In this document: positions 35,690 to 64,000 of the stretch, piece by piece
Layout: each line of letters begins with the position of its first letter
Position numbering within the stretch: the stretch's first letter is position 1
From: Unio delphinus
Taxonomy: Eukaryota > Mollusca > Bivalvia > Unionida > Unionidae
DNA length: 64,000 bases
Assembly: GCA_029339505.1 (NCBI GenBank)
Contig: JAQISU010000096.1
Span: 1,946,501 to 2,010,500, forward strand
Direction: 5' to 3'
Notes under the pieces: generated by a model
Database searches by the model: none
What the model saw: the letters and a program-made list of their open reading frames with translations, nothing else
What the model was told of the DNA's origin: nothing
Program-made: the position numbers and the translations under genes

Positions 35690-37010
35690 TCCATGCTCTA
35701 TGAAGGCTATCAGTATGGGTAATTTGTACCATTCATAAAGGTGATCAAGTAGGTGTGTTGTATCCTATCCATGCTCTTATGACTGAAGGCTATCAATATG
35801 GGCAATTTGTACCATTAATAAAGGTGATCAAGGAGGTGTGTTGTATCCATGCTCTTATCACTAAAGGCTATCAATATGGGCAATTTGTACCATTCATAAA
35901 GGTGATCAGGGAAGTGTGTTGTATCCATGCTCTTATCACTGAAGGCTATCAATATGGGCAATTTGTACCATTTGTAAAGGTGATCAGGGAAGTGTGTTGT
36001 ATCCATGCTCTTATCACTGAAGGCTATCAATATGGGCAATTTGTACCATTTGTAATGGTGATCAGGGAAGTGTGTTGTATCCATGCTCTTATCACTGAAG
36101 GCTATCAATATGGACAATTTGTACAATTTGTAAAGGTGATCAGGGAAGTGTGTTGTATCCATGCTCTTATCACTGAAGGCTATCAATATGGGCAGTTTGT
36201 ACCATTTGTAATGGTGATAGGGAAGTGTGTTGTATCCATGCTCTTATCACTGAAGGCTATCAATATGGGCAATTTGTACCATTTGTAAAGGTGATCAGGG
36301 AAGTGTGTTGTATCCATGCTCTTATCACTGAAGGCTATCAATATGGGCAATATGTACCATTTGTAATGGTGATCAGGGAAGTGTGTTGTATCCATGCTCT
36401 TATCACTGAAGGCTATCAATATGGGCAATGTGTACCATTTGTAATGGTGATCAGGGAAGTGTGTTGTATCCATGCTCTTATCACTGAAGGCTATCAATAT
36501 GGGCAATTTGTACCATTTGTAAAGATAATTAGAGGTAGGAGGTGCTGTGGTGCCCATGCCTTATCATTGACAGATATAAATACAGGCAATTTGTACCATT
36601 AATAAAGGTGATCAGGGAAGTGTGTTGTATCCATGCTCTTATCACTAAAGGCTATCAATATGGGCAATTTGTACCGTTCATAAAGGTGATCAAGGGGTGT
36701 GTTGTGGTGCCCATGCTCTATCATTGGAGGTTATAAATTTGGGCAGTTCGTACCATTTATAAAGGTGATCGGGGTGGGGGTGTTGTGGTGGCCATACCCA
36801 ATCATTTAAGGCTATATATATGGGCAGTTTGTACCATTTGTAAAGGAGATAAAGGTGTGTGTTGTGGTGGCCGTGTTCTTTCAATGAAGGCTGTTTATAC
36901 AGGCTATTTGTACCTATTGTGTGTGTTGTGGTGTCCATGCTCCATCTATTTAAAAACTGTTTATATGGGTAATTTGTACAATTTATAAAGGTGTTCAGGA
37001 GTTTGTGTTG
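35690..37010 (+). repeat. 78-bp satellite array
   Basis: The unit begins gtgatcagggaagtgtgttg and continues tatccatgctcttatcactg, aaggctatcaatatgggcaa and tttgtaccatttgtaaag (78 bp). About ten well-kept copies (35800-36520) are flanked by degenerate ones reaching to 37010. Because 78 is divisible by three and the unit lacks stops in several frames, long repetitive ORFs open on both strands. They are not taken as genes. Confidence 0.95.
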
Positions 37011-38189: not shown

Positions 38190-38870
38190 GGTACTAGCAT
38201 GTAATACATGTAGCACTCAATAATTTCGCTTAATCCGTATGTAACGTTTACGATATTAGCGACTAATAACGTGCTGCATTGATAATTTGTGCTTTATTTA
38301 TCTTCTTTGACGTTTCAGTAGACTTCAAAAAAGTCTTTGAACAACCAAGTTGCGACTATTTAATGGCGGACTTCGTGTTGTAGTCACGAGTTCACGCGAC
38401 ACTTAATCATTTCGCTTTCTCCGTTAGTTACGGTTATGGAATAGCGACTTAATAGCGTGCTGAATTGTTAATTTGTGCATTGTTTATCTTCTTTTCCGTT
38501 TCAGTAGACTTCGTCTCTGAACGACCAGTTGCGACTATTTAATGGCGGAATTCGTGTTGTAGTCACGAGTTCACGCGACACTAAATCATTTTGCTTCCTC
38601 CATTAGTTACGGTTATGGTAATAGCGACTTAATAGCGTGCTGAATTGCTAAATGTGCTTTGTTCATCATCTTTTTCGTTTCAGTAGACTTCGTCTTGAAC
38701 GACCCATTGCAACACGCTCACGGCGATAACTAGTGTGGTCATTAAGAGTTAACATGGCACGGAATAATTTGACTACTCCGTTAGTAACGGTTATAGTATT
38801 ATCGAATTAATAATATGCTGAATTTTTTAATTTGTGCTTTGTTCTCTTGTTTTGTCGTTTCAGTAGCAAA
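38190..38870 (+). repeat. About 182-bp direct repeats inside the DIRS 5' region
   Basis: Nearly four copies are present of a unit containing 'cgttagttacggttatg', 'gcgacttaatagcgtgctga', 'ttcgtttcagtagacttcgt' and 'agtcacgagttcacgcgaca'. Each carries a TTTCAG|TAG acceptor-like site. They lie between the left terminal repeat and the gag-like ORF, where promoter or leader function is plausible but unproven. Confidence 0.85.
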
Positions 38871-39953
38871 GTCGACAACGAAGGCATGAATGGCAAAATG
38901 GGTGTTGGTAATGTGAAAATGGAGGAAATTATGTTGACATGGTTTAGGCTGCCCAGTGGGTGTAAATTTCACCGCAGGTCCGTGCATGGCTTTCGGGCCT
39001 GTAAGTCCGGACGCATGGAGTCTATGCTGGATCAATTGGATCCATTTTATTATGCACTTTCGCCGGCCGTCCAGCCGACACCGTCAGTTCAGCCGGCACT
39101 TCAGCAGGCACCAACCGGCACTAGCCGTACATCCGGCACCGTCCGTTCAGTCCAAATGGCACCAGACGGCCAGCCAACCTTCCAGCCCAAATGGTACCGG
39201 ACGGCCAGCCGACCTTCCAGCTTGCATCAACAGGCACCAGCCGTTCAGCCCAAATGGCACCAGCTGGCCAGCCGACATCAACCGGCACCGGCCGTCCATC
39301 CGGCAACGACCGTTCAGCCCAAATGGCACCGGTCGTCCAGCCGACCTTCCAGCCGGCATCAACCGGCACCGGCCGTCCATCCGGCAACGACCGTTCAGCC
39401 CAAATGGCACCGGTCGTCCAGCCAACCTTCCAGCCGGCATCAACCTGCACCGGCCGGCCATCCGGCAACGACCGTTCAGCCCAAATGGCACCGGTCTTCC
39501 AGCCGGCATCAACCTGCACCGGCTGTACATCGGATTTACGGAGATTATAGTAATGTACCTGTCAGTCAATCTGTACTACTGGTTACATATCACTACCATG
39601 AGAGAGATGTTATAGATGAATCTCCGTCCAATCAGACCATTCGAGAGGCAGGTGCCGGTCATAGCCGGACCTTCGCCGACATTCCGGTCGACCATATACC
39701 AGACAAATCAGTCGGTATTGCCGGTGTACACCTCCCGTCACGTCAAATACGTGACGGTGTGATTTTAAAACAAGGGAGAATTAGTGACATTATCAGAGAT
39801 GACGGAATTGAGTTATCTATGCCACTTGGTATGCGCTACCCAGATATGGCAGCTTTACCAGAACATGACTTTCAGGCCGACCATTCGCCAGTTCAATCAG
39901 CCGTTAGTGCCGGCCGTCCATATGTTCACGGCTTCTCCACAAGGGAGATTTAG
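38832..39953 (+). CDS. DIRS gag-like ORF with 27-residue Pro/His repeats
   Basis: The open frame of 373 codons has an ordinary-looking N-terminus (KMEEIMLTWFRLPSGCKFHR at about residues 30-50). The centre is built from a 27-residue repeat (type VQPKWHRSSSRPSSRHQPAP) encoded by an 81-bp DNA repeat. The C-terminal half is non-repetitive, with SPVQSAVSAGRPYVHGFS near the end. Because 81 bp is divisible by three, neighbouring and opposite frames are also open, so this frame is only the most likely. Position just upstream of the RT region suggests a structural, gag-like protein. The true start may be further in. Confidence 0.45.
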   Translation: MCFVLLFCRFSSKVDNEGMNGKMGVGNVKMEEIMLTWFRLPSGCKFHRRSVHGFRACKSGRMESMLDQLDPFYYALSPAVQPTPSVQPALQQAPTGTSRTSGTVRSVQMAPDGQPTFQPKWYRTASRPSSLHQQAPAVQPKWHQLASRHQPAPAVHPATTVQPKWHRSSSRPSSRHQPAPAVHPATTVQPKWHRSSSQPSSRHQPAPAGHPATTVQPKWHRSSSRHQPAPAVHRIYGDYSNVPVSQSVLLVTYHYHERDVIDESPSNQTIREAGAGHSRTFADIPVDHIPDKSVGIAGVHLPSRQIRDGVILKQGRISDIIRDDGIELSMPLGMRYPDMAALPEHDFQADHSPVQSAVSAGRPYVHGFSTREI

Positions 39954-41020
39954 TGAAAGTGTCAATTATGACAGAATCGCGTCATTTAGGTCACCTGGTA
40001 TGCTGTACAGATATGCAAGCTGTACCAGAACCAACATTCCCTCTGAGCGAATGGTAGATGGGCGCGCAGTGCTGGCCGCATTACACAGTATTATCAGGTA
40101 GCCTATTTGAGAAAAGCCAAATTAATGTACAAGATATCCAATAATAGTGATCCTGAATATTTACAATCCCTATTCCAGTATAGCAAATGGCACCAGCTGG
40201 CCAGCCGACATCAACCGGCACCGGCCGTCCATCCGGCAACGACCTTTCAGCCCAAATGGCACCGGTCGTCCAGCCGACCTTCCAGCCGGCATCAACCGGC
40301 ACCGGCCGTCCATCCGGCAACGACCGTTCAGCCCAAATGGCACCGGTCGTCCAGCCAACCTTCCAGCCGGCATCAACCTGCACCGGCCGGCCATCCGGCA
40401 ACGACCGTTCAGCCCAAATGGCACCGGTCTTCCAGCCGGCATCAACCTGCACCGGCTGTACATCGGATTTACGGAGATTATAGTAATGTACCTGTCAGTC
40501 AATCTGTACTACTGGTTACATATCACTACCATGAGAGAGATGTTATAGATGAATCTCCGTCCAATCAGACCATTCGAGAGGCAGGTGCCGGTCATAGCCG
40601 GACCTTCGCCGACATTCCGGTCGACCATATACCAGACAAATCAGTCGGTATTGCCGGTGTACACCTCCCGTCACGTCAAATACGTGACGGTGTGATTTTA
40701 AAACAAGGGAGAATTAGTGACATTATCAGAGATGACGGAATTGAGTTATCTATGCCACTTGGTATGCGCTACCCAGATATGGCAGCTTTACCAGAACATG
40801 ACTTTCAGGCCGACCATTCGCCAGTTCAATCAGCCGTTAGTGCCGGCCGTCCATATGTTCACGGCTTCTCCACAAGGGAGATTTAGTGAAAGTGTCAATT
40901 ATGACAGAATCGCGTCATTTAGGTCACCTGGTATGCTGTACAGATATGCAAGCTGTACCAGAACCAACATTCCCTCTGAGCGAATGGTAGATGGGCGCGC
41001 AGTGCTGGCCGCATTACACA
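39251..41020 (+). repeat. 837-bp direct duplication split by a LINE-derived spacer
   Basis: Copy 1 (39251-40087) and copy 2 (40184-41020) are offset by 933 bp and are almost identical; the one difference I noticed is GACCGTTCAG versus GACCTTTCAG. The 96-bp spacer contains 40103-40170, which matches the 3' part of the LINE at 51286-51353 ('aagccaaattaatgtacaag' and 'atatccaataatagtgatcc' in both). The duplication repeats the gag-like C-terminal half. Confidence 0.92.
40107..40886 (+). pseudogene. Second copy of the gag-like C-terminal half
   Basis: Copy 2 of the duplication repeats the same Pro/His repeats and C-terminal region, with the same stop context. Its apparent start lies in LINE-derived sequence (KLMYKISNNSDPEYLQ), so it has no genuine N-terminus. 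It is a duplication product rather than a separate gene. Confidence 0.7.
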
Positions 41021-42968: not shown

Positions 42969-43373
42969 ATGCTCACGCCAGAGATACGATCATTCTTGAG
43001 TCAGTGGCACAACCCCTGTGGGTTGTCCACAGGGATTACTCTGGAGATACCCCAAGTGGAGATAACGGTATGTTCCGCCACTAGTACCTACGGTTGGGGT
43101 GCCCACCTGTTGCCGGACTTCGATACTGTCAGCGGCACGTGGGTGCCAGGGGCGAGCTCTTTCCACATCAACCTTTCAGAAATAACGGCTGTCATCAACG
43201 CCTTTCATTTCGGGCAGGATCAACTCTTATTACAAACTGCCCTCATTATGTCAGACAACTTTGTGGTGGTGCCTTGCCTCAAAACATGGGGACACCAATC
43301 ACCAGACCTGTGCAATCTGAGCTGGCAGTTTATACATTGGTTCGACAATCTCCACCTCAATGTACAATTCTGA
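42969..43373 (+). pseudogene. DIRS RNase H domain
   Basis: An open stretch of 134 codons starts LTPEIRSFLSQW and contains YGWGAHL, HINLSEITAVINAF, MSDNFVVVPCLKTWG and SPDLCNLSWQFIHWF. This is the DIRS RNase H layout (W-AHL ... HIN-LE-AV ... SDN-xVV-YI--GGT-SP-L). The first catalytic Asp appears replaced (TSTYGWG where the family has T-DAS-GWG), consistent with decay. Confidence 0.9.
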
Positions 43374-44480
43374 CACATTCTTGGCAGACTCAATGTCTTG
43401 GCTGACACTCTATCTAGTCATTCACATAGAATGGTCACTCCATCAATCGGACTTTCTTCCAATTGACACACTTTGGGGACGTCCGGTGATTGATCTTTTG
43501 CAACAAGGTGGAATTGCAAGTTGTCCACATTTCATCTTGCAGGTTCCAGACCCAGAAGCTTGGGTTGTGGATGCTCGATCAATCAGCTGGGAAGGGTTGT
43601 GGTCATTCTCCTACCCTCCCACGGTCTTGGTACTGAAATTAATCCAGAAGTTAAGGGGTCAGAACTGTCAGATGGTTCTGATTGCCCCTCTCAGATGGAA
43701 CAATTCCTGGGTCTCCGATCTACTCAATCTAGGCGATAGATCTACCCAGGAAGATTACAGTCAGCACAAGTATTCGCAAGCAACCGCGGCAAGGGGTGTT
43801 CCACCCCTGTCCGGACCGTCTTTATGTTCAAGCTTGGCTCTTGTCCAGACAGCCTTGCAAGACAAACAATTTAAATCTTTGATTGCGGAGAGAATCTCGA
43901 GAGCAAGAAGGCCCTCTGCTCTGAAGGTTTACGAGGGCAAGTGGCATGTTTTCAGGGACTGGTACCATATCATTCACATTGTTCCTCTGAGTGTCACAAT
44001 CCCTCAACTGGCCAACTTTTCTCTGGCTTTTCGAGGAGAAAAAGCTGGCTCCAGTTATTATCAAATGCTACCGCTCCATGATATCAGACACATTCCGCCA
44101 TTCTGGTACATGTGCTATCAGCCATGACAAAGATTTGTCAGATCTTTTAGAGACTTTAAAAATTCAATCGACTTATATCCCTCACCCTGTTTCCAAATGG
44201 AATCTGTCCTGGGTTTTAACATGACTCAATTCAGACAGTATTGAGTCTTTAACCCACGATTAGTTAAAGCTACTATCATACAAATTGGGTTTCTTGATAG
44301 TCTTAGCTTCAGCATGCAGGGTGAGCGAGTTACATGTCCTTTCTAGTGACCCGAACTCTCTTCCGTTCCGATCAGAGGGTTTGATGGTCCTCTTGACGCA
44401 GCCAGGCTTCGTAGTCCAAAATAGATTACCATACATTGGCGATCCACGAGTCGTCATTAGCTCGCTTTCTTTATAGATAA
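43360..44480 (+). pseudogene. DIRS linker domain and tyrosine recombinase, decayed
   Basis: The frame opening at 43360 has DSMSW, then WVVDARSISWEGLWSFSYPP and MVLIAPLRW, typical of the DIRS methyltransferase-like/linker region (PDP-A-AVDA-QSW). Next come the core-binding segment RISRARRPSALKVYEGKWHV and, after frame changes, IGFLIVLASACRVSELHVLS (about 44281-44341), the tyrosine-recombinase box with its first catalytic Arg. The H-x-x-R box and the Tyr are not readable. Confidence 0.88.
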
Positions 44481-48739: not shown

Positions 48740-49430
48740 AAATTCAAAAGGTTATAACATAGGTCACCTAAATGTACAAGGTATATTGGGAAAAATAGAC
48801 CAGATTAAGTTAATGTTTGTTTTCTTAGGAAAATAATATACATATTTTATGACTCACTAAAACTAAATTAAATGCCTACCACAATGATAATCTATTTCAC
48901 TGTCAAGGCTACAATAAACCATTACGCAGGGACAGAGAGACAGCGGGGGGAGGTCTTGTTGTATACATTAGAGAAGGTGTAAATGCAGAAAGGCGACGAC
49001 TTGGAGTCACATGAAATTGAGAGTATCTGTGTGGAAATTTCTCAAAATAATGCAAAATCATTCCTAATTGGTTTCATTTATAGGCCATCTTCCTCCAAAG
49101 CAATCTGGAATGATAATGTTTTGAAACAAATGGAAAATATTCTTGCACAGGAGAAAGAAACATATATAATCGGTAATATAAATAAGGACCTTCTCAACAC
49201 TCAAATAAGGGACAACTAGATGGAATTTATTGAATCATTAGGCCTAGTCCAGATGGTACATGAGCCCACAAGGGTAACAGAAAAATCAAGCACTCTTATT
49301 GATCACATTTATACCAACCTACCAGACAATGTGGCTTGTGTTAATATACCAAATGTTGGTCTTAGTGATCACTATCCTACTTTTTTGACAAGAAAGGTTA
49401 AATGCAAGAGAAATAAGAAAAACACACACA
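48740..49430 (+). pseudogene. LINE apurinic-like endonuclease domain, broken
   Basis: Fragments in order are GYNIGHLNVQGILGKIDQIK (EEP opening), GGGLVVYI, IESICVEISQ, FLIGFIYRPSSSKAIWND, TYIIGNINKDLLN (family GDFN-DL, with D changed to N), then LVQMVHEPTRVTEKSSTLID and GLSDHYPTF. A stop at 48833, a stop at 49217 and frame changes break it. Confidence 0.88.
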
Positions 49431-49694
49431 AAACGATCACTTACAGATCGTTCAAACATTTTAGTGAAGAACAGTTTCTTGATGACCTATATAAAGTTCC
49501 ATGGAATATGATCCAAAATTTGGATAACATAGATGAAGCTCTGATAGTATGGACTGACTTATTTATGGATGTAGTCTCTAAGCATGCACCACTGAAAATA
49601 CATCGAGTAAAGAATGAAATCCAACCTAATAGGCTTACTACTGAAATACTAGATGCTATGAAAACACGAGACCAATTCAAGGCTAAGGGAAACC

Positions 49695-51053
49695 ATGCAA
49701 AATATAAAGTATGGAGAAATAACAAGTATGATTAAAAAAGCTAAAAAGTCGTATTATCAGTCATTGCTCGAAAACAAAAAGAGCAACACAAACTCCATTT
49801 GGAAAGTCTTCAATGAACCCACTGGAGGAACACACAACAATCAGACAAACAAATTTCACTCACTTCTGGTCAATGACACCATAGTCACTGATGAAACTAA
49901 CATTGCAAATGTTTTCAATGATTTTTTCACCAACATTACCACAAAGTTAAAAGAACCAGTCATAGAAAACAACTTTAATGAACTGAAAAAGTTCTTCAGC
50001 AGCAAAATCTCTAAGGAAATATGTTTCTGTATCCCACCAGTATCAAGAAACTTTGTTATAAAATGTCTCAGTGAACTTGATACCAAGAAAGCTACAGGAC
50101 TTGATCAGATTGGTCCAAGACTCATTAAACCTTCTGCCTCTGCTATTTTAGATAGCATAACATTCATAATCAATTTAAGTATTGCAGCCTCATCTGTCCC
50201 CAAAATATGGAAAACTGCAAAAGTAACTCCTATTCACAAATCTGGATCTAGAATGATGCTGATAACTACTGACCAATTTCAATACTACCAAACTTGTCAA
50301 AATTGATTGAAAAACATGTCCATGACTCGTTCATGTCATATTTAAACAAACACTTGCTGTTACACCCTAATCAATCAGGCTTTAGACAGAAACATTCATG
50401 TGAGACTGCCTTGATCTCCCTAACTGATAAATGGCTTCAAGCACTTGACCAACGTAAAATAATAGGATCTGTATTTGTAGATAACAGGAGAGCATTTGAC
50501 ATGGTGGATCATGAAACCCTTTTGAAGAAACTGAAAATCTACCAATGCGATGAAAAAACAGATGGTTTACTTCGTACTTAATGAGAGAATACAACTTGTT
50601 TATATAAATAACATTCTGTCTGAACCTGAAACAATTAGGTATGGAGTACCACAAGGCTCAATTCTAGGTCCATTACTATTTATTTTATTTATTAACGACC
50701 TACCACTTATTCTAAGAGACTCGATATCATCTACAGATCTCTTTGCAGATGACACAACATTGTCATACATCCAAAACACAAAGCATGAACTTGAAATTTC
50801 TTTACAGAGTGCACTAAACAAGCTGGAAAACTGGTGCACATGCAGTGGCATGGTAGTAAATACTGGTAAAACTAAAATATTACTTATATCAACAAGGAAA
50901 AACAGGAAAAATCTTGATAGCAATGTACTATGTCTGACATGGAAGGATACAAATTTGCAAATGGTCTGTCATGACAGACTACTTGGTGTTTTGGTAGATA
51001 ATAACCTATCATGGACTGATCATATCAAACATATCAGTAAAAAGGTAAATTAA
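49695..51053 (+). pseudogene. LINE reverse transcriptase, broken into three frames
   Basis: The first piece (49695-50306) contains ELDTKKATGLDQIGPRLIKP and WKTAKVTPIHKSG. The second (50294-50581) has NQSGFRQKHSCETALISLTD and VFVDNRRAFDMVDHE, where the catalytic Asp context is FVD-xRAFD. The third (50550-51053) has YGVPQGSILGPLLFILFINDL-type text and the FADDT active site, then NTGKTKILL. Frameshifts near 50260-50306 and 50550-50581 separate them. Confidence 0.92.
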
Positions 51054-52197: not shown

Positions 52198-53085
52198 GTA
52201 AGCATCAAATAATCATTTTAATATGAATCCATGTTATGTCAATGTACACTGCATGAAAACAAGAATTTATTTAGCACATTTAAAAGAAGTCAGCATTAAA
52301 ATTTTGTGTGAAAGTTTGTAAAGTTAAATAAAAGGCATGGGGTGTATCCACACAAGATTTCAGAAGATCCTTGTTTATTTTACGTATGATGTCAACATGA
52401 CAAGTGATTTCTGCATAACTTAAATATCTTACATAGTTACAATGATAATATATTGGATTGATATTTTTCCTCATTACATGACAGTAATATCCTTTATTCA
52501 GCTTGAAAGAATTACATTTTTCTCTCATCATTGCAATTTCCAACAATCTGATCATTCAGGCCCTTTTGAATTTTTTTAATTCATACCTATATAAACCAAA
52601 CAATATAAAATTTACCCCCACCAACTGGCACTACTTTTTCCCCTACATTTACATTGAAATGTAATCTGTGTAAGAGATTTGCAAGCTGCATTAATGTAAC
52701 AAGGGCAAATTTTTATAGATACTGTTGGTCAAAAATAAATAAGTTTAAATTGTATGTTACCCTTTCATTTGTCATCTGTTGAGATAATTTTTTGAAAGAA
52801 CATAACTGGCTTCAATTTTTTTTAAAAAGAAATAATTCTTCATTGATAGTAATCAAGACAGTCCACTCCCTCCATTTCCAACTCTTAAGATTTTAAACAA
52901 GAGGTTTGCTAATAGATCTTTTCAGCCGGAATTGATTTGTGTGTTTTGATAACTTTTTGCATTGACGATGTCCATAAATAATGGTGATTCTCTGTGAAAA
53001 AAATAATGTGTTAAATATATTTATTTGTTATTTCCATTATACTTTAGACAATCTTGCAAAACCTAAAGAATAATACCTTTAGCAG
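52198..53085. other. ENPP intron 11 before the virus-like element
   Basis: AT-rich sequence without recognisable exons. A minus-strand ORF of 91 codons at 52280-52555 shows no domain. The change to the coding-dense element occurs near 53085. Confidence 0.6.
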
Positions 53086-53240
53086 CAGACAGGGTGAACC
53101 CTACAACGAGCGTAAAAGCGTCGAAATCATAAAAAAAGCGTCAAATCATAAAAAAAACGTCGAATCGTAAAAAAAAGCGTCGACAACCAATGCTTCCTCA
53201 TCTACGCCAGCGTCGTTGTCATCCACCCTCTCTGCTGCTA
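53085..53240. repeat. Left terminal region with AAAAGCGTCGAAATCAT repeats
   Basis: Four imperfect copies of a 20-bp word, aaaaaaagcgtcgaaatcat (variants aatcgt, acgtcg), lie at about 53110-53185. They sit between the presumed left end and the first gene. Repeated words near termini are common in Polinton inverted repeats, but the matching right end is outside the window, so this is a candidate only. Confidence 0.5.
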
Positions 53241-53264
53241 TGTGTTAATAATTTTTTTACGAGT

Positions 53265-53936
53265 TTAACCGAATATTTGATCCAGTCCGATACGATATCG
53301 TGTTCGAGGATCATGTAAATTTATTGTTATAAATCCATACGGGGTTGACAGAGCGTTACTAAAGAAATTTTTAAATTGATTGAAGTCCATATCAGAGCAC
53401 CATGTCTGCCAAATATTTCGTAACGTATGTGTATCAACGCCGTTAAACACAGCAAGAATATTACAGTTATCTCTGATCACTTTTGGAATCTGAGTGTATC
53501 GTTGAGTGACATATATCACGTCGGTGTTTTTATGCCTGCCTCTGGAAAAGATCCTAGCAGGATTTTTTTGATTGTCTAACATCACATCGTCGTATACGAC
53601 TAAATTATTAATGTTCCCATCAAGGTCATCCACGGATGGTGCCTCGTCAATATCAGTTATAAAATCAATGGCGTTCTCACCCTTAATTTCTGATGCTTTC
53701 TCGTTAAATTCCTTTAACACTTCATAACATCGTTGATCATCTACGCTAGGGGCAATTAAATACAACTTATCCCACTTCATCCATCTCATTATTAAATTGA
53801 GTAACAATTGCGTCTTGCCGGATCCAGATGGCCCGATTATAATCATCCGGATAGAGTTTGAAAGCGCTGCATGATGCTTAACCGGTTCTCTTGCTTTAGT
53901 CGCTGAAAAATCAATTATATCCATATCTCTATACAT
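53265..53936 (-). CDS. A32-like/FtsK-HerA packaging ATPase
   Basis: The protein has 223 residues. A Walker A motif GPSGSGKTQ lies near residues 34-42, a Walker B-like NLVVYDDV near 110-117, and a sensor-like VIYVTQR near 135-141. The layout and length match the genome-packaging ATPase of Polintons, adintoviruses and poxvirus A32 relatives, which drives DNA into capsids. It is the leftmost gene and reads toward the element's left end. It starts head-to-head with the zinc-ribbon gene, only five bases apart at the ATGs, so either the promoter overlaps coding sequence or the downstream Met (53924) is the real start. The frame is intact. Confidence 0.92.
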   Translation of the reverse strand: MYRDMDIIDFSATKAREPVKHHAALSNSIRMIIIGPSGSGKTQLLLNLIMRWMKWDKLYLIAPSVDDQRCYEVLKEFNEKASEIKGENAIDFITDIDEAPSVDDLDGNINNLVVYDDVMLDNQKNPARIFSRGRHKNTDVIYVTQRYTQIPKVIRDNCNILAVFNGVDTHTLRNIWQTWCSDMDFNQFKNFFSNALSTPYGFITINLHDPRTRYRIGLDQIFG

Positions 53937-53941
53937 AAATT

Positions 53942-54235
53942 ATGGATCTATATTGTGTGAAGTGTAAAACGTGTACTGGCACAGATGACTTGACGACGAT
54001 TACAACTAGAAATAACCGATCAGCGCTTTCTGGTAAATGCGTGCAATGTGGTACAAAAAAATTTAGATTTATTTCTACAAAATCAAAGATTTTACAATCC
54101 GGAGATGTTTTTAAAAAAAACGAGGAGGTGATATCGCAGCCAAATTGGCAAAACTCCCTGGAACCCCATGGGCAAAGTACCCCGGAGAAAAGCACCTTCC
54201 AGGATATAGCTACTGTGGCCCCGGAACACGATTAG
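53942..54235 (+). CDS. Zinc-ribbon ORF, 5' frame of a zinc-ribbon/PLA2 pair
   Basis: The ORF has 97 codons. The N-terminal 45 residues form a four-Cys zinc ribbon (CVKCKTCT ... GKCVQCGTKKF), similar to the DUF5679-type ribbon found beside PLA2 domains in virus-derived elements. Beyond about residue 58 the composition becomes unlike a domain. At 54115-54121, in the zero frame, lies an A-AAA-AAC heptamer; a -1 change of frame there enters the PLA2 frame, which is open to 54480. The tail from 54122 to 54235 is probably not the main product. Whether the switch is programmed or a homopolymer indel cannot be told from sequence. Confidence 0.75.
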   Translation: MDLYCVKCKTCTGTDDLTTITTRNNRSALSGKCVQCGTKKFRFISTKSKILQSGDVFKKNEEVISQPNWQNSLEPHGQSTPEKSTFQDIATVAPEHD

Positions 54236-54480
54236 ATATCAGACTTGATGATCAAAATCAACCCAGATCCGGCGAGTATCCGATAAATGCCATTGATAAG
54301 GCGTGTCACGCTCATGATGTTGCATATAAAAGCAGCAATCTGCAACACAGGCATCTCGCAGATGTGAAATTAATTCATGCGTTAAATGCTATTCCTGATA
54401 AATCTTTCAAAGAAAAATTGGCTTCGTGGTTGGTAAAATCAGCTATGAAAGGCAAATTGATGATGGGTGCTGGTAATTAA
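54121..54480 (+). CDS. Phospholipase A2-like domain (parvovirus VP1/adintovirus type)
   Basis: The open frame of 119 codons has no ATG upstream of its catalytic residues, so it depends on the upstream frame. It holds the calcium-loop motif YCGPGT and, about 40 residues on, the catalytic helix DKACHAHDVAY with its His-Asp pair. Both are intact. Such domains occur in parvovirus capsids and in adintovirus/Polinton proteins, where they are thought to breach endosomal membranes during entry. Genomic context, lack of a signal peptide and the YCGPGT type argue against a secreted digestive or venom PLA2. It ends five bases before the integrase ATG. Confidence 0.85.
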   Translation, partial: RGGDIAAKLAKLPGTPWAKYPGEKHLPGYSYCGPGTRLDIRLDDQNQPRSGEYPINAIDKACHAHDVAYKSSNLQHRHLADVKLIHALNAIPDKSFKEKLASWLVKSAMKGKLMMGAGN

Positions 54481-54484
54481 TAAT

Positions 54485-55444
54485 ATGGAATCTATTTATT
54501 ATTCTCCGAGAGGATACTGGAAGGGTAAAGCAGCAATCAGTAAGCTCGCCAGCGCCGCAAAAGTGAAAAAGGCTACTGCGGCTAATTGGTTATCCAAACA
54601 GGCACTATGGCAGATTTATCTACCACCGCCTAAACAAATCAATTTTTCGCATTTTGATGTTACCGGACCCAATGAAGTTCATCAAGCTGATTTATTGTTT
54701 TTACCACATGACAACGGTTACAAATACGCGCTAACCGTAGTTGACGTTGCGAGTCGATACAAACAAGCAGAACCGCTAAAAACAAAGTCAGCTACTGAAG
54801 TAGCTTCTGCATTTGAAAAGATTTATCGAAAGGGTCCTCTGCGTTGGCCGAATCTGTTACAAGTTGATCCTGGCAAGGAATTTCAGGGTGCAGTGTTATC
54901 AGCGATGAAACATCATAATGTCACCATCAGACGAGGGCATACTGCGCTACATCGCGATCAGGCAATTGTTGAACGATTTAATTGGACTCTTGCTGAGCGG
55001 TTATTTGGATATCAATACGCGAAGGAGTTTATTCAGGATAAAAGATCCTGTGAATGGGTTAAGAGATTACCAGCTGTGATTACCGCGCTCAATAACGAGA
55101 TTACTCGAACAATTAACATGAAACCTGTCAACGCGATTAAGAAAGCGTCCATACCAAAAATGGAAATCCATGGAATTTCACAAAAAGATTTCAAAGAACC
55201 AATTCTTGGTAGTAATGTCACTGTGAGATATTTATACGAACCAGGAGAGCTTGAAGGTGGCAGAAAAAGGGCTACTGATCCTATTTGGAGTGTTACTGCA
55301 CACAAGATATCTACTATAACACGATCAACTGGTAGACCTCCAATCTATAAACTGGATTCAACTGCCCCTCAGCGGGGTTTTACACGCGAACAATTACAAG
55401 TGATTCCTGACGATACTCAATTGCCACCTCATGGTCTTAACTAG
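54485..55444 (+). CDS. Retroviral-type DDE integrase (rve fold)
   Basis: The protein has 319 residues. I chose the ATG at 54485; an earlier alternative start would overlap the PLA2 gene. Residues 1-50 form a helical DNA-binding-like segment (YWKGKAAISKLAS ... ANWLSKQALWQIY). The catalytic core shows Asp 69 (HQADLLFL), Asp 128 (LQVDPGKEFQG) and Glu 163 (AIVERFN); the last two are 34 residues apart, the spacing of the integrase D,D-35-E signature. The C-terminal region (from about 245) is a basic SH3-like stretch. No zinc-binding HHCC motif or chromodomain is evident. It belongs to the Polinton integrase group and would insert the element. The frame is intact. It overlaps the 3' end of the polymerase gene by 8 bases, tail to tail. 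Confidence 0.95.
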   Translation: MESIYYSPRGYWKGKAAISKLASAAKVKKATAANWLSKQALWQIYLPPPKQINFSHFDVTGPNEVHQADLLFLPHDNGYKYALTVVDVASRYKQAEPLKTKSATEVASAFEKIYRKGPLRWPNLLQVDPGKEFQGAVLSAMKHHNVTIRRGHTALHRDQAIVERFNWTLAERLFGYQYAKEFIQDKRSCEWVKRLPAVITALNNEITRTINMKPVNAIKKASIPKMEIHGISQKDFKEPILGSNVTVRYLYEPGELEGGRKRATDPIWSVTAHKISTITRSTGRPPIYKLDSTAPQRGFTREQLQVIPDDTQLPPHGLN

Positions 55445-58301
55445 CACCCCTTCGTCTGTTGCACTCAAGACAAGTCAGCATAACATTATCGTTGGTATGA
55501 CCAATGCTGCTATTCTTTCTGTCTATGGTAAATTGGCGAGGATCTTTATCCGAATACTGCCAACGCATTATACAATTGCAACTCGCGCAGTGATTATTCT
55601 GTTGTTGTTTCAGCGTAATTATTAATTTAGCATCAATGTCAAATTCTCTATTATTTTTTTTATCCTGTTGTTTATAACCGGAGAGTTTTTTATTAATGAT
55701 GCTAGCATCATCCATTGTAGTGTCATCATCGTCACTAATGATTTTATCATCGAAAACAACTCTTCGAAGTTGATTTAATCTCCTCACTCTGGATACTGCA
55801 AGATAGACTAAATTCGACCATTCGATGCGATTATCTACCATCCAAACAATTGTATCCGATATAGTCAATCCCTGTGAAGAATGTATTGTCGCTGCGTATC
55901 CTAGCGTCCACGGGGATTTATTAGCACGCAATGCATCTTCAACAACGCTGATATCAACCAGCACAATATCATTTAACACGAGAATCTGCTTTTCACTCTT
56001 CCCTGGAATATCAACTTCAATATTCTGCTTTCGTGTATCCGAAGGCCTATTACACAACGGTACTGGAAGTGTTGCAAATTTTTCTTTATGCGTTTCAAAT
56101 AACTTCATCTGAAGTGTGTCTCTGACTATTTTTCTACTTGCTACTATCAAATCATTTGGTCTCCACGTTTCCCAAAAATCATTCATGGGAGTTTCTGAAA
56201 TTATTTCACGCGCTATTTCGCATTGGATTTTATCCAACTGTAATCTAATCAGTGCTTTGAACTCGCGTAATTGTTCATCAAGTGATCTATAATCAGTAGT
56301 AATTTCTTCATAGTAGTCTACAAAACCCTTTAGCCATTCATGTGGAGATGCACCGACAAATGGTGGTGGTTGGCCGTGATCACCGCACATGACGACTTTT
56401 GTGTTTTTGTTTAACAACCATTCGAGAAATGTTTGTAATACTCTCAACGATACCGTGCATATTTCATCCCAAATTATGATTTCAGGAATGAATTTATCGC
56501 CCATTCGATCAGGGGTCCATTCATCGCCTTTCCATCGAAAGAAACTGTGATAAGTACAGGCATTTACCCCTCGCTGTATCATCTCTCTGGCGAGTCTGTG
56601 AGTCGGTGTTAACACAATCATATTTGACCGACGATATAATTCAATTGCACGAGTTGTCTTTCCTGACCCACCACAACCGTTTAAATAAACTGTCTTGTAT
56701 CTACATATTGGATCAGATACCGGTGGTGCATTAGAAAATTCTGATTGAATCTTATCACACTTTAAGTACTTTTCATCCATGGTAACATCTGCCGATTCAC
56801 AATACTCATGTAGTTTTTCCTTTTTAAATTGCCAACGTCCCCACGCTTCCTCCTGGGATGTGAATTTAGCTACATCTGATTTGTATTTCTCGTGGATATA
56901 AATAGAATCAGTGGCTACTCTAACTGCGTTATTAGGAAATCTATTTATCATCGAAAATAAATTGATAGAAGCATAAGCTAGCATAGAACTTCTCAGATGT
57001 GTATATTGTTTAATATATCCATCACAATAGGTAACAACCGTACCCAATTTCTCACCATTGGATAGAAAAGCGTCTTTACGATTTACAAGTTTTCCCTGTT
57101 TCGTTAAATCCGTTACAATAAAATCGTATTCAGCGACGTCTATGATCAACCGCGAGGAATATTTTGCATTGTCGTATCTTCCACCCTGGGTAAATTTACC
57201 GATTATTCTTCGTCCAAAATCTTTTGCTTGTTCTTTTTTAATTTCAAATAACTTCTTAGAACAATTCATGACTTCTTCCTCGCTGAAATCTGGAAACTGT
57301 TTTCGCTGTTCGCTAATTATACGATCTAGATCGGGTTGTGGTAGCCAAACTTCTTTCTGAGCTCGATAGCATATAATAGCTTCGGAAACAATCAACGATT
57401 GTAACATCTCACAATCAATCATATATCGTAGTAACACTATTGGCATCCAGGCCTTTTCAGATATATGTCTACCAAGCCAAAGATAACTACACGAATGTAA
57501 CCCTGTAGCGAGTTCAAATGATATCACACAAGCGAATCCGGTTAAATCAAAATCAGGTAATGGACCATTAATCGCAACACGAGTCATTTCATGCGTGGGG
57601 TGTCCGAATCGTTTAAAGTATTCAGCGGCTTCTCCATATCCAAGAAAACTCCCTGGATAACACGCAGCTATATCAATTGAAATCATACCATCACGTGAGT
57701 ATTTTGTATTCCACAGTCCTCCATGACTAAATTCTACGCAACTCAATTTAACATCCTCGAGAAAATCACTTCGTGTTGGACGCCATGAGTTTTTTTCTCT
57801 TGCGAAGTGAGCTACCACTGATGGAATAGTAAAACTATCCGTGAGTAGTTTTTCATGGAAACTCTCCGGTGAAAAATCATTAGCGATTTTTCTCATTCTG
57901 TTATCTAATTCTTCAACGCGATATAATTCACCATTTGGTCTTACAAACTGATCAAATCCTATTTCGGGATCTTCATCACTTCTAAGTAACCACACTGACA
58001 CAGGATCATCTTTACACAATGCATGAATAGCATCGAATAATTTCTCATTATAAAAAACATCTCCGACGAACCCCCCGACGAATTCCTCGGGGATATATTT
58101 CACGGTTCTATCTCGTGGAAATATTGTTACTGCAGGTGTCCACGCGTGTTCGTTATGATCAATAATTTGTATTGGAGCTCCATTTTTGTTATATTTCGGT
58201 TCGTATAAAACTTCTCCGGTTATCGTCATTACTGATATTGGGAATCTTAATGATGTTTCTGATTTAGCTATATCAGAAATCTTTGCACTGTCAGTTCCCA
58301 T
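55437..58301 (-). CDS. DNA polymerase B - SF1 helicase - HNH fusion protein
   Basis: One intact 954-codon frame carries three enzymes. Residues 200-475 show family-B-like polymerase motifs: A (SIDIAACYP, 208-216), B (FGRRIIGKF, about 362-370) and C (ATDSIY, 463-468). No exonuclease motifs are seen. Residues 535-850 are a superfamily-1 helicase: Walker A GCGGSGKTT (542-550), Walker B IIIWDEI (608-614), motif III MCGDHGQPPPF (638-648), motif V GYAATIHSSQG and motif VI LAVSRVRR. Residues 905-954 are an HNH endonuclease with CASC and CLECN zinc knuckles. Polinton polymerases are usually separate, exonuclease-bearing protein-primed enzymes, so this arrangement is exceptional. Upstream ORFs in other frames (58268-58976) probably encode its N-terminus. 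Confidence 0.93.
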   Translation of the reverse strand: MGTDSAKISDIAKSETSLRFPISVMTITGEVLYEPKYNKNGAPIQIIDHNEHAWTPAVTIFPRDRTVKYIPEEFVGGFVGDVFYNEKLFDAIHALCKDDPVSVWLLRSDEDPEIGFDQFVRPNGELYRVEELDNRMRKIANDFSPESFHEKLLTDSFTIPSVVAHFAREKNSWRPTRSDFLEDVKLSCVEFSHGGLWNTKYSRDGMISIDIAACYPGSFLGYGEAAEYFKRFGHPTHEMTRVAINGPLPDFDLTGFACVISFELATGLHSCSYLWLGRHISEKAWMPIVLLRYMIDCEMLQSLIVSEAIICYRAQKEVWLPQPDLDRIISEQRKQFPDFSEEEVMNCSKKLFEIKKEQAKDFGRRIIGKFTQGGRYDNAKYSSRLIIDVAEYDFIVTDLTKQGKLVNRKDAFLSNGEKLGTVVTYCDGYIKQYTHLRSSMLAYASINLFSMINRFPNNAVRVATDSIYIHEKYKSDVAKFTSQEEAWGRWQFKKEKLHEYCESADVTMDEKYLKCDKIQSEFSNAPPVSDPICRYKTVYLNGCGGSGKTTRAIELYRRSNMIVLTPTHRLAREMIQRGVNACTYHSFFRWKGDEWTPDRMGDKFIPEIIIWDEICTVSLRVLQTFLEWLLNKNTKVVMCGDHGQPPPFVGASPHEWLKGFVDYYEEITTDYRSLDEQLREFKALIRLQLDKIQCEIAREIISETPMNDFWETWRPNDLIVASRKIVRDTLQMKLFETHKEKFATLPVPLCNRPSDTRKQNIEVDIPGKSEKQILVLNDIVLVDISVVEDALRANKSPWTLGYAATIHSSQGLTISDTIVWMVDNRIEWSNLVYLAVSRVRRLNQLRRVVFDDKIISDDDDTTMDDASIINKKLSGYKQQDKKNNREFDIDAKLIITLKQQQNNHCASCNCIMRWQYSDKDPRQFTIDRKNSSIGHTNDNVMLTCLECNRRRGAS

Positions 58302-59370: not shown

Positions 59371-59862
59371 ATGAGCCAAGATTTCAGACCTCACCCAGTG
59401 CTTGTTAATTATGAAGCATCCCGTGATGGTGTTATTAGAAATTGCAGACTAAAAGAACCGGTTGGGTATCTGAATAATATGGGGTATTTGATGTTTTCAG
59501 CTGGGAGGAAGAAGTATCTCTGTCACAGAGCCATCTATGAAGCATTTTACGGATTAATCGAAGACGGCCTTGTGATTGATCACATAAATGGCGTAAAGAC
59601 TGATAATTGTCTTGTGAATCTTCAAGCCGTCTCACAAAGTCGGAATGCAAAATTAGGTGGAACTGGCAAACATGCAAAACGCCCTAGGGGGATCAAATCG
59701 TTTGATTTAGAAAATAATCAAGAGAGAAGCTTTCAGTCGATAAATGAAGCCAGTAGATACTTTGACATTTGTGGGAATTCAATACTATTTGTTGCAGAAA
59801 ATATAATTAAAACTGCTCTGTCGAAAAAAAATAGTTATAAAATAAAATTCGTATACACCTGA
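59371..59862 (+). CDS. NUMOD4/HNH endonuclease with NUMOD1 tail
   Basis: The protein has 163 residues. Residues 8-45 resemble a NUMOD4-like head (YEASRDGVIRN ... LCHRAIYEAFYG). Residues 55-90 form an HNH core (GLVIDHINGVKTDNCLVNLQ then SQSRNAK). Residues 108-135 form a NUMOD1-like DNA-binding helix (RSFQSINEASRYFDI). This architecture belongs to free-standing homing endonucleases of phages and giant viruses. Catalytic His/Asn positions are present. The element thus carries two different HNH nucleases; this one could make the element or the gene itself mobile. Confidence 0.9.
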   Translation: MSQDFRPHPVLVNYEASRDGVIRNCRLKEPVGYLNNMGYLMFSAGRKKYLCHRAIYEAFYGLIEDGLVIDHINGVKTDNCLVNLQAVSQSRNAKLGGTGKHAKRPRGIKSFDLENNQERSFQSINEASRYFDICGNSILFVAENIIKTALSKKNSYKIKFVYT

Positions 59863-62476: not shown

Positions 62477-62846
62477 ATTTAGAATCACAGACAGTAACCG
62501 TAATGATTTTGAGAGTTTTAAAGACAAAGTATTGAGTAGAATAGAAAAAATGAATCTATTTGAAGAGGATGAAGAGGAGTCAACTGGAGATGGATATTTA
62601 GGTAGCGGCATATTTGAAAACGCTAGCGTTACTTGTCCTGGTAACATTCTCAGTTATATATCACGACTGGAGGTTCTCATCGGCGGGAAGCGAGCCGGAA
62701 ACAACTCACCGGAAATAATTAATGAGGTCGCTGATATCTGTAGACGATTATTTGCCGGCGGTATCATGGACATTAATGTATATCGAGAACTCGTTGCTGA
62801 ATTAGTTGAAAATCACAAAGATACCCATGGTTATTACAGCGATTGA
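62454..62846 (+). CDS. Unknown acidic protein of the capsid block
   Basis: The protein has 130 residues. It has an acidic segment (MNLFEEDEEESTGDG) near residues 33-47, followed by a helical domain with SYISRLEVLIGGKRAG and IINEVADICRRLFAGGIMDI. It overlaps the previous gene by 23 bases and is followed after 35 bases by the minor-capsid candidate. The frame is intact. No family is recognised. Confidence 0.65.
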   Translation: MYLANRGRFRITDSNRNDFESFKDKVLSRIEKMNLFEEDEEESTGDGYLGSGIFENASVTCPGNILSYISRLEVLIGGKRAGNNSPEIINEVADICRRLFAGGIMDINVYRELVAELVENHKDTHGYYSD

Positions 62847-62881
62847 TCACTAATGGAAAAATTACTAGTTTTAATAACAAG

Positions 62882-63316
62882 ATGATTATACACTTCAACC
62901 ATGATAAACCAACCCCCGTCTATGTAGTTAATTCACGGTTTCCAGTTTATAGAGCATATTACGGAGATGGTCTCGGTGATACCATTGCGGGGTTATTTAC
63001 AAGAATGGCCCCAAAAGTGGCGCCGTTAGCTAAACAATTATCAATGAAGGCCATTGATGTTATTCGTGATAAGGGTATTGGTGCTGTTGGAGATCTCGCC
63101 GGAAAAGCGTTTTCAGCTGCGAAGAATAAAATAACATCATTAGTGAGACGAAAAAAGAAACCGTTACCGTCTACAGCGGAAATGCCTGCAAGTGTTAGTA
63201 AAATTATAAAAAACGCAGTAGATGAAAAATTAGCGCAATTGACTTCAACCTCTGACCAAAATAACATGATAGCAAACATGATAGCGGGTAGTGGCTTTAA
63301 AAAACCACGACGATGA
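62882..63316 (+). CDS. Candidate membrane-active minor capsid/core protein (adenovirus pX/pVI-like)
   Basis: The protein has 144 residues from the ATG at 62882; an earlier start would need a non-ATG codon. After a short leader comes a Gly/Ala-rich amphipathic section (GDGLGDTIAGLFTRMAPKVA, then PLAKQLSMKAIDVIRDKGIG). A basic stretch follows (SLVRRKKKPLPS, about residues 94-105), then a helical C-terminus. Adintoviruses and Polintons carry small proteins of this character next to the major capsid gene, resembling adenovirus core/membrane-lytic proteins. The assignment is by composition and location, not by a catalytic motif. Confidence 0.55.
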   Translation: MIIHFNHDKPTPVYVVNSRFPVYRAYYGDGLGDTIAGLFTRMAPKVAPLAKQLSMKAIDVIRDKGIGAVGDLAGKAFSAAKNKITSLVRRKKKPLPSTAEMPASVSKIIKNAVDEKLAQLTSTSDQNNMIANMIAGSGFKKPRR

Positions 63317-63398: not shown

Positions 63399-64000
63399 AT
63401 GTTCAAAAGGTCACCTAATCCAGCGTTTGATATAGACGCCCCAGTTCGCACGGATGATTCTGTACGCGATTATCAATATTACGCCTATCATGCAATAGAC
63501 TCAAATAGTCGATCAAGAATTGAACTTCAAGTCCATGATACCAGTAAATACTTTTTGCCCTGTGAAGCATTTATCGAAGTAGAAGGAGAACTTGTAACAG
63601 CTGCTGATACTCCTGCTGTACCAGCACCGTATCCAGCTGGTACTCAAGTCGGGTTTGTCAATAATGGTATCATGGCGCTATTTGAGAGTGCTAGATATCT
63701 CATTGATGGAAAAGAAATTGAGTCCATAGATCGCGATGTTGATGTGGCTACAACAATAATCGGGTTAGCGAGATATTCTGATGATTATACAAGATCCGCA
63801 GGTCCTTCTATGATGTTTGCAAAAGATGTTACAAATACCGCTGGAGGAAATCCATTTGTTGTAAGACGACCAAAAAAACGTGATAATAGTGATGCTGATG
63901 TCGAGGATATGATTATAAACAAAGATGATAATTTCAATCTAGGAGCTGCAACACGTATTTCAATGTTGGGGAGGGGGCGTAAATCATTTTCATGTGCGAT
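63399..64000 (+). CDS. Candidate major capsid protein, N-terminal part, cut by window edge
   Basis: The open frame runs from the ATG at 63399 to the window end (about 200 residues). Features include DYQYYAYHAIDSNSRSRIEL, YFLPCEAFIEVEGEL, FVNNGIMALFESARYLIDGK and LARYSDDYTRSAGP. This order (a beta-rich 'LP-xA-xEVEG', then 'TNNGIM-LF', then 'GLxxYSDD') fits a family of jelly-roll capsid-like proteins that I recall from virus-derived elements in invertebrate genomes. Position at the end of the late block agrees. The family name and fold need a search or model to confirm; the C-terminus is absent. Confidence 0.7.
   Translation, partial: MFKRSPNPAFDIDAPVRTDDSVRDYQYYAYHAIDSNSRSRIELQVHDTSKYFLPCEAFIEVEGELVTAADTPAVPAPYPAGTQVGFVNNGIMALFESARYLIDGKEIESIDRDVDVATTIIGLARYSDDYTRSAGPSMMFAKDVTNTAGGNPFVVRRPKKRDNSDADVEDMIINKDDNFNLGAATRISMLGRGRKSFSCA

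Follow-up and report, generated by a model that had tools for sequence, protein, structure and literature searches.

The fusion of a protein-primed family B DNA polymerase (pPolB) with a superfamily 1 (SF1) helicase is known from several mobile elements. Tlr1-like helicases combine a pPolB palm with a vOTU domain, variable N-terminal domains and a fused SF1 helicase, have lost the exonuclease, and end in a GIY-YIG or an HNH domain in different polinton-like viruses (PLVs); their palm was predicted to be active and the name pPolB-S1H was proposed for them (PMC11071308). Such fusions, in which the first Asp of polymerase motif C is changed, occur in PLVs, Tlr1 and transpovirons (PMC11071308, PMC12721341), and in the literature consulted those of the Tlr1 type come from protists, from viruses of algae and from satellites of giant viruses. 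Here we examine a protein of this kind in the bivalve Unio delphinus, within a stretch of 64,000 nucleotides (contig JAQISU010000096.1, positions 1,946,501 to 2,010,500), hereafter the window. Encoded on the minus strand by an open reading frame (ORF) of 954 codons with an ATG start, taken from the ORF list of the window (55437..58301), it is very probably a Tlr1-like helicase (pPolB-S1H fusion) that ends in an HNH-type domain and serves as the replication protein of an integrated PLV; this copy of the gene has suffered damage toward the 5' end.

As in Tlr1-like helicases, the palm is followed by the SF1 helicase and by a C-terminal nuclease-type domain, the first Asp of motif C is changed while motif A is kept, the Cys and His of a putative vOTU domain precede the palm, and an rve integrase is present, as it is in Tlr1 (PMC11071308). 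Unlike Tlr1, the element resides in a large animal genome, and its relatives come from a sea slug and from fungi of the glomeromycete group. It also has phospholipase A2-like and protease-like genes. A PLV of Oxyrrhis marina likewise fuses an SF1 helicase to a protein-primed PolB, but it carries the helicase at the N-terminus and has a complete exonuclease, whereas the window protein has a C-terminal helicase and an apparently incomplete exonuclease (PMC12721341). With canonical Polintons/Mavericks and adintoviruses the element shares inverted repeats, an rve integrase, an A32-like ATPase, a capsid module and a protein-primed polymerase fold. The canonical pPolB, in contrast, matches PF03175, bears DTDS and has no fused helicase, where the window protein has ATDS and a helicase, and the target-site duplication measures 6 bp in Polintons (PMC10045372) against 5 bp here. 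The pPolB of mavirus has also lost most of the exonuclease and the first Asp of motif C, while its helicase, of superfamily 3, is a separate gene (PMC11071308). Cryptophyte and other PLVs with an SF1 helicase and a C-terminal GIY-YIG domain, helicases with an N-terminal HNH domain and duplications of 5-6 bp were reported in PMC12220804, and sea-anemone Polintons bearing PLV-type capsids in PMC4642659. No pPolB-S1H fusion from animals or glomeromycete fungi is reported among the matches listed, drawn mostly from literature available without subscription, nor in the accessible parts of PMC11071296, PMC7805220, PMC4409740, PMC10045372 and PMC8097293. The initial annotation had presented the three-domain protein as unprecedented, yet fusions that lack the exonuclease and end in an HNH or a GIY-YIG domain were already on record (PMC11071308, PMC12721341). 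Its observation that palm, SF1 helicase and HNH-type domain form one protein holds, as does the setting in a Polinton-like element with integrase and A32-like ATPase genes close by.

Since no sequence profile reaches the palm, the case for a polymerase rests on predicted structure and motifs. Residues 63-506 of the model align on residues 53-500 of phi29 polymerase, so that the N-terminal part of about 500 residues, initially annotated as a polymerase palm, is still modelled as one. In the exonuclease region, the alignment begins only at phi29 residue 53, and about 100 residues lie between the vOTU-like part and the palm. In BFVD the full-length model matches H6WBE3 best (E 1.7e-23 over 1,128 columns); this protein, presumably from a transpoviron, also ranks second for the palm piece alone. 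The pPolB of mavirus is also among the structural matches. OTU and terminal-protein matches are absent among the structure matches listed, which are filled by one or two domains, and this absence is therefore no evidence. The vOTU-like domain is a candidate suggested by its motifs, the Cys of NCVA being present in 31 rows of a 32-row alignment of relatives and the first and second His of HNxHAW in 32 and 29. The helicase is reached by profiles: Pfam places an SF1-type AAA domain at residues 534-655, C-terminal to the palm, with AAA_19 (E 5.2e-11) and AAA_30 (E 1.1e-8) both over cut-off. Among PDB sequences it comes closest to Pif1-type helicases, the top NCBIfam match, RecD2, falls far below its cut-off (38.5 bits against 500), and the Walker lysine is kept in all 32 aligned relatives.

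The 954-codon frame, first described as intact, proved to be truncated. Full-length relatives possess an extra N-terminal region, and another copy in the same genome (L002) has an open frame of 1,195 codons from a GTG, residues 19-1195 of which align to residues 3-1168 of the relative P0002 at 69.7%. In the window this N-terminal part is split over two fragments, the second out of frame (Table 1), which indicates damage near the 5' end of this copy. By alignment, the window frame begins within the vOTU-like domain and is not the whole gene. At least 48 fusion matches were scored in the genome, with 92-100% identity, 25 of the 48 being stop-free over residues 5-954. Of seven further copies, six could be traced to both ends, and five of these six have exact 5-bp duplications; copy C47 has an imperfect target duplication (4/5), and the right end of copy C15 was not found within the stretch examined. 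An assembly join of separate genes, a doubt raised by the initial annotation itself, or a chance frame is ruled out by these 48 copies and their 25 stop-free frames. Database relatives also contradict it, retaining the Walker lysine (32/32) and the HNH core (31/32) although 30 of the 31 aligned relatives compared with P0002 are just 40-47% identical to it.

Selection was estimated as the ratio of nonsynonymous to synonymous substitution rates (dN/dS) in two subfamilies of 12 and 6 copies, window included, without internal stops. Between the subfamilies the palm has a dN/dS of 0.27 and the helicase one of 0.17; the HNH-type domain stands at 0.14 and the protein as a whole at 0.24, values that we infer to reflect function in replicating lineages. 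Synonymous divergence between them is 0.05-0.06 over the first 170 residues and climbs to 0.38 by the HNH-type domain, a gradient that suggests recombination between the subfamilies.

At the C-terminus, PHROGs gave endonuclease VII and HNH families (phrog_1035, E 2.8e-9), and the Pfam HNH match is weak, with 6 of 32 relatives matched and a best E of 0.023. The HNH-type core is found in 31 of the 32 relatives; the first CxxC is kept in all, the second CxxC, the Asn and the later His in 31. At what we take to be the usual position of the HNH general-base His, 31 relatives carry an Arg and one has a gap, so that cutting by this domain, and with it the nicking first attributed to the protein, is unproven. 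By these measures the HNH-type domain is a retained, constrained part of the protein with a putative nuclease activity. One may ask whether it is instead a selfish homing endonuclease that joined the replicase and plays no part in replication, as PMC11071308 reads the HNH and GIY-YIG domains of such proteins and as the free-standing HNH_3 gene nearby would allow. This is possible, though somewhat doubtful: the core is kept in relatives as far as the Elysia and Racocetra proteins, and the domain has the lowest between-subfamily dN/dS, unlike a sporadic, decaying insertion.

Several results weigh against a pPolB-S1H identity. A Pfam PolB match is absent for the window protein and its 32 relatives (14 families listed). 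Comparison by hhalign with a 109-sequence canonical pPolB alignment was insignificant, its score of 21.2 being matched by 9 of 150 column shuffles and by the reversed profile (21.4); motifs A, B and C were nonetheless in register. Two single phage polymerases gave no significant hhalign match, and the fusion alignments are of low diversity, with an effective number of sequences of 2.3 for the palm. IMG/VR yielded no viral relative for the fusion alignment, for the capsid part or for P0041, by a method that needs exact short peptide matches, and the proposed kinship with Tlr1 and transpoviron proteins is drawn from published descriptions. Within the larger subfamily, moreover, dN/dS reaches 0.50 for the palm, 0.31 for the helicase, 0.37 for the HNH-type domain and 0.42 overall, values that would be expected of recently integrated, decaying copies.

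The palm could also be a relic that has lost catalysis and persists as a scaffold, in a helicase-only protein that borrows its polymerase, for example from the canonical Polintons of the same genome, where PF03175 was found at 75 scored places (150 pieces over cut-off). The first Asp of motif C is indeed missing in all 32 aligned relatives (Ala in 31, Thr in one), the palm has a higher dN/dS than the helicase and the HNH-type domain, and PMC11071308 tells of a 2016 paper that made the case for inactivation. A dead palm is nevertheless unlikely, given that the motif-A Asp and the second motif-C Asp are kept in 32 of 32 relatives, that the between-subfamily palm dN/dS is 0.27, and that active PolBs of mavirus, mitochondrial plasmids and pipolins also lack the first Asp (PMC11071308).

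For the pPolB-S1H fusion proposed here, protein-primed replication with a built-in helicase is the likeliest mode. A domain near the N-terminus would prime synthesis at the inverted repeats, and the vOTU-like domain, to judge from its motif and the literature, would cut the primer part from the polymerase. The palm, whose predicted fold is matched, would copy one strand. Pif1, RecD2 and Dda are SF1B helicases moving 5'-to-3', and the fused SF1B helicase may travel on the displaced strand the same way as the fork moves, thereby taking on the unwinding for a polymerase whose exonuclease is apparently incomplete. The HNH-type domain perhaps resolves or cuts replication or integration intermediates, or may be a domesticated homing endonuclease. 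This scheme draws on the predicted palm and helicase folds, the conserved acidic residues, the domain order, the integrase, the repeats and duplications and the apparent purifying selection. The initial annotation had envisaged a single enzyme able to unwind, copy and nick DNA by itself, with a different, nick-initiated mode in place of protein priming. The three domains do share one chain, but such a mode is unsupported and highly improbable, since fused pPolB-S1H proteins are known, the element has terminal inverted repeats and a phi29-type protein-primed fold, full-length relatives have the extra N-terminal region, and the HNH general-base position is occupied by Arg in 31 of 32 relatives.

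Judged by its sequence, the host element is an integrated PLV of about 16.5 kb, extending from window position 53081 to 5,577 bases beyond the window end, in stretch L016. The Polinton-type set is present (Table 1), with rve integrase, A32-type ATPase, double-jelly-roll capsid and inverted repeats, the integrase and capsid scores being barely over their cut-offs. An ORF matching Peptidase_C5, the adenovirus protease, stays below cut-off (16.4 bits against 21.3) and is 29% identical to an ORF of the canonical element. The free-standing HNH_3 gene adjoins the replicase gene. Directly outside the element, L016:7463-7900 holds what is presumably a MULE-transposase-like ORF; in the window, we take ORFs at 42969-44127 to resemble DIRS-type retroelements and fragments at 49220-51053 to resemble a LINE reverse transcriptase. 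The ORF list also contains repeat-built ORFs at 35755-36602 and 38832-40886, one proline-rich repeat stretch occurring twice.

Table 1. Features of the fusion gene and of its host element, in window coordinates.
Feature	Position	Strand	Basis or remark
Main frame	55437..58301	-	vOTU-like domain end, short linker, PolB palm, SF1B helicase, HNH-type domain
vOTU-like protease domain, C-terminal half, HNEHAW, residues 1-70	58092..58301	-	Motif conservation
Pre-palm stretch of ~100 residues (71-170), possible exonuclease remnant	57792..58091	-	Remnant reading conjectural
Protein-primed PolB-like palm/fingers, residues 171-506	56784..57791	-	
Polymerase motif A SIDIAACYP, residues 208-216	57654..57680	-	Asp in 32/32 relatives
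Polymerase motif B FGRRIIGKF, residues 362-370	57192..57218	-	
Polymerase motif C ATDS, residues 463-466	56904..56915	-	First Asp of DTD changed
SF1B (Pif1/RecD2/Dda-like) helicase	55752..56702	-	Pfam, PDB sequence matches, predicted structure
C-terminal HNH-type domain, two CxxC pairs	55443..55649	-	PHROGs, dN/dS, 32-row alignment; Pfam weak
N-terminal fragment of fusion gene, ORF of 162 residues	58539..59027	-	
Second N-terminal fragment, vOTU-like Cys motif NCVA, ORF of 104 residues	58268..58582	-	Different frame
Left terminal inverted repeat, 207 bp	53081..53287		Partner L016:5372-5577 past window; 95.7% over 207 columns
5-bp target-site duplication CCTTT	53076..53080		Repeated after L016:5577
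A32-like packaging ATPase	53265..53936	-	Pfam Pox_A32 E 8.6e-13
DUF5679 ORF	53942..54235	+	PF18930 E 4.2e-12
Phospholipase A2-like domain	54145..54480	+	PF08398 E 1.8e-11
Retrovirus-type (rve) integrase	54467..55444	+	Pfam rve E 5.4e-8, 33.5 bits, cut-off 32.6
Free-standing HNH_3 endonuclease ORF	59371..59862	+	PF13392 E 8.6e-14; NUMOD1 PF07453 19.5 bits, under cut-off 22.8
Small basic protein, TTG listed start	62843..63316	+	No Pfam match; 83% identical in second element; possibly adenovirus pVI/pX-like
Double-jelly-roll capsid protein	63399..64000	+	Runs on in L016:2-808, that part PF21738 28.8 bits, cut-off 27

A first database search gave 68 homologues and a profile search 28, 11 of them new. 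Their named sources include the sea slug Elysia crispata and the glomeromycete fungi Diversispora epigaea, Gigaspora margarita, Rhizophagus, Racocetra, Cetraspora and Ambispora. In a midpoint-rooted FastTree phylogeny of 71 proteins, the window protein clusters with P0002-P0005, the Elysia proteins lie near each other inside one large clade and the named fungal proteins form a separate clade. Some rows of the 32-row alignment are partial, two Elysia models being without part of the helicase and P0045 (Diversispora) stopping before the HNH core; in P0043 (Racocetra) palm, helicase and HNH core are all present.

The canonical pPolB of the same genome occurs in open frames mostly of about 1,361 residues. 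The four inspected carry DTDS and are 92-95% mutually identical, and the highest-ranking named relatives come from oysters (Saccostrea) and other marine invertebrates. At C225 one side of a canonical pPolB is taken up by ATPase, integrase and protease-like ORFs of the same element, which share 25-29% identity with those of the window. A second element, with a window-type capsid module, adjoins this canonical pPolB (G000:C225:207001-232500; L056, L052, L057); its capsid parts are 65 and 81% and its protease-like ORF 70% identical to their window counterparts.

While the kind of protein is known, its host range, covering animals and mycorrhizal fungi, and the strong constraint on its HNH-type domain appear to be new. 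A multi-copy family in an animal genome, with sea slug and glomeromycete relatives, widens the host range of the Tlr1-type replicon. We tentatively propose, as a nearly even matter, that pPolB-S1H viruses have long resided in animals and mycorrhizal fungi, in one genome as dozens of copies beside ordinary Polintons, and that the HNH-type domain belongs lastingly to their working replicase and is not a homing passenger. The selection data bear on whether the palm of pPolB-S1H fusions is active. The genome houses two Polinton types that differ in their replicase, which permits a direct comparison of replication by helicase-fused and by ordinary pPolB.

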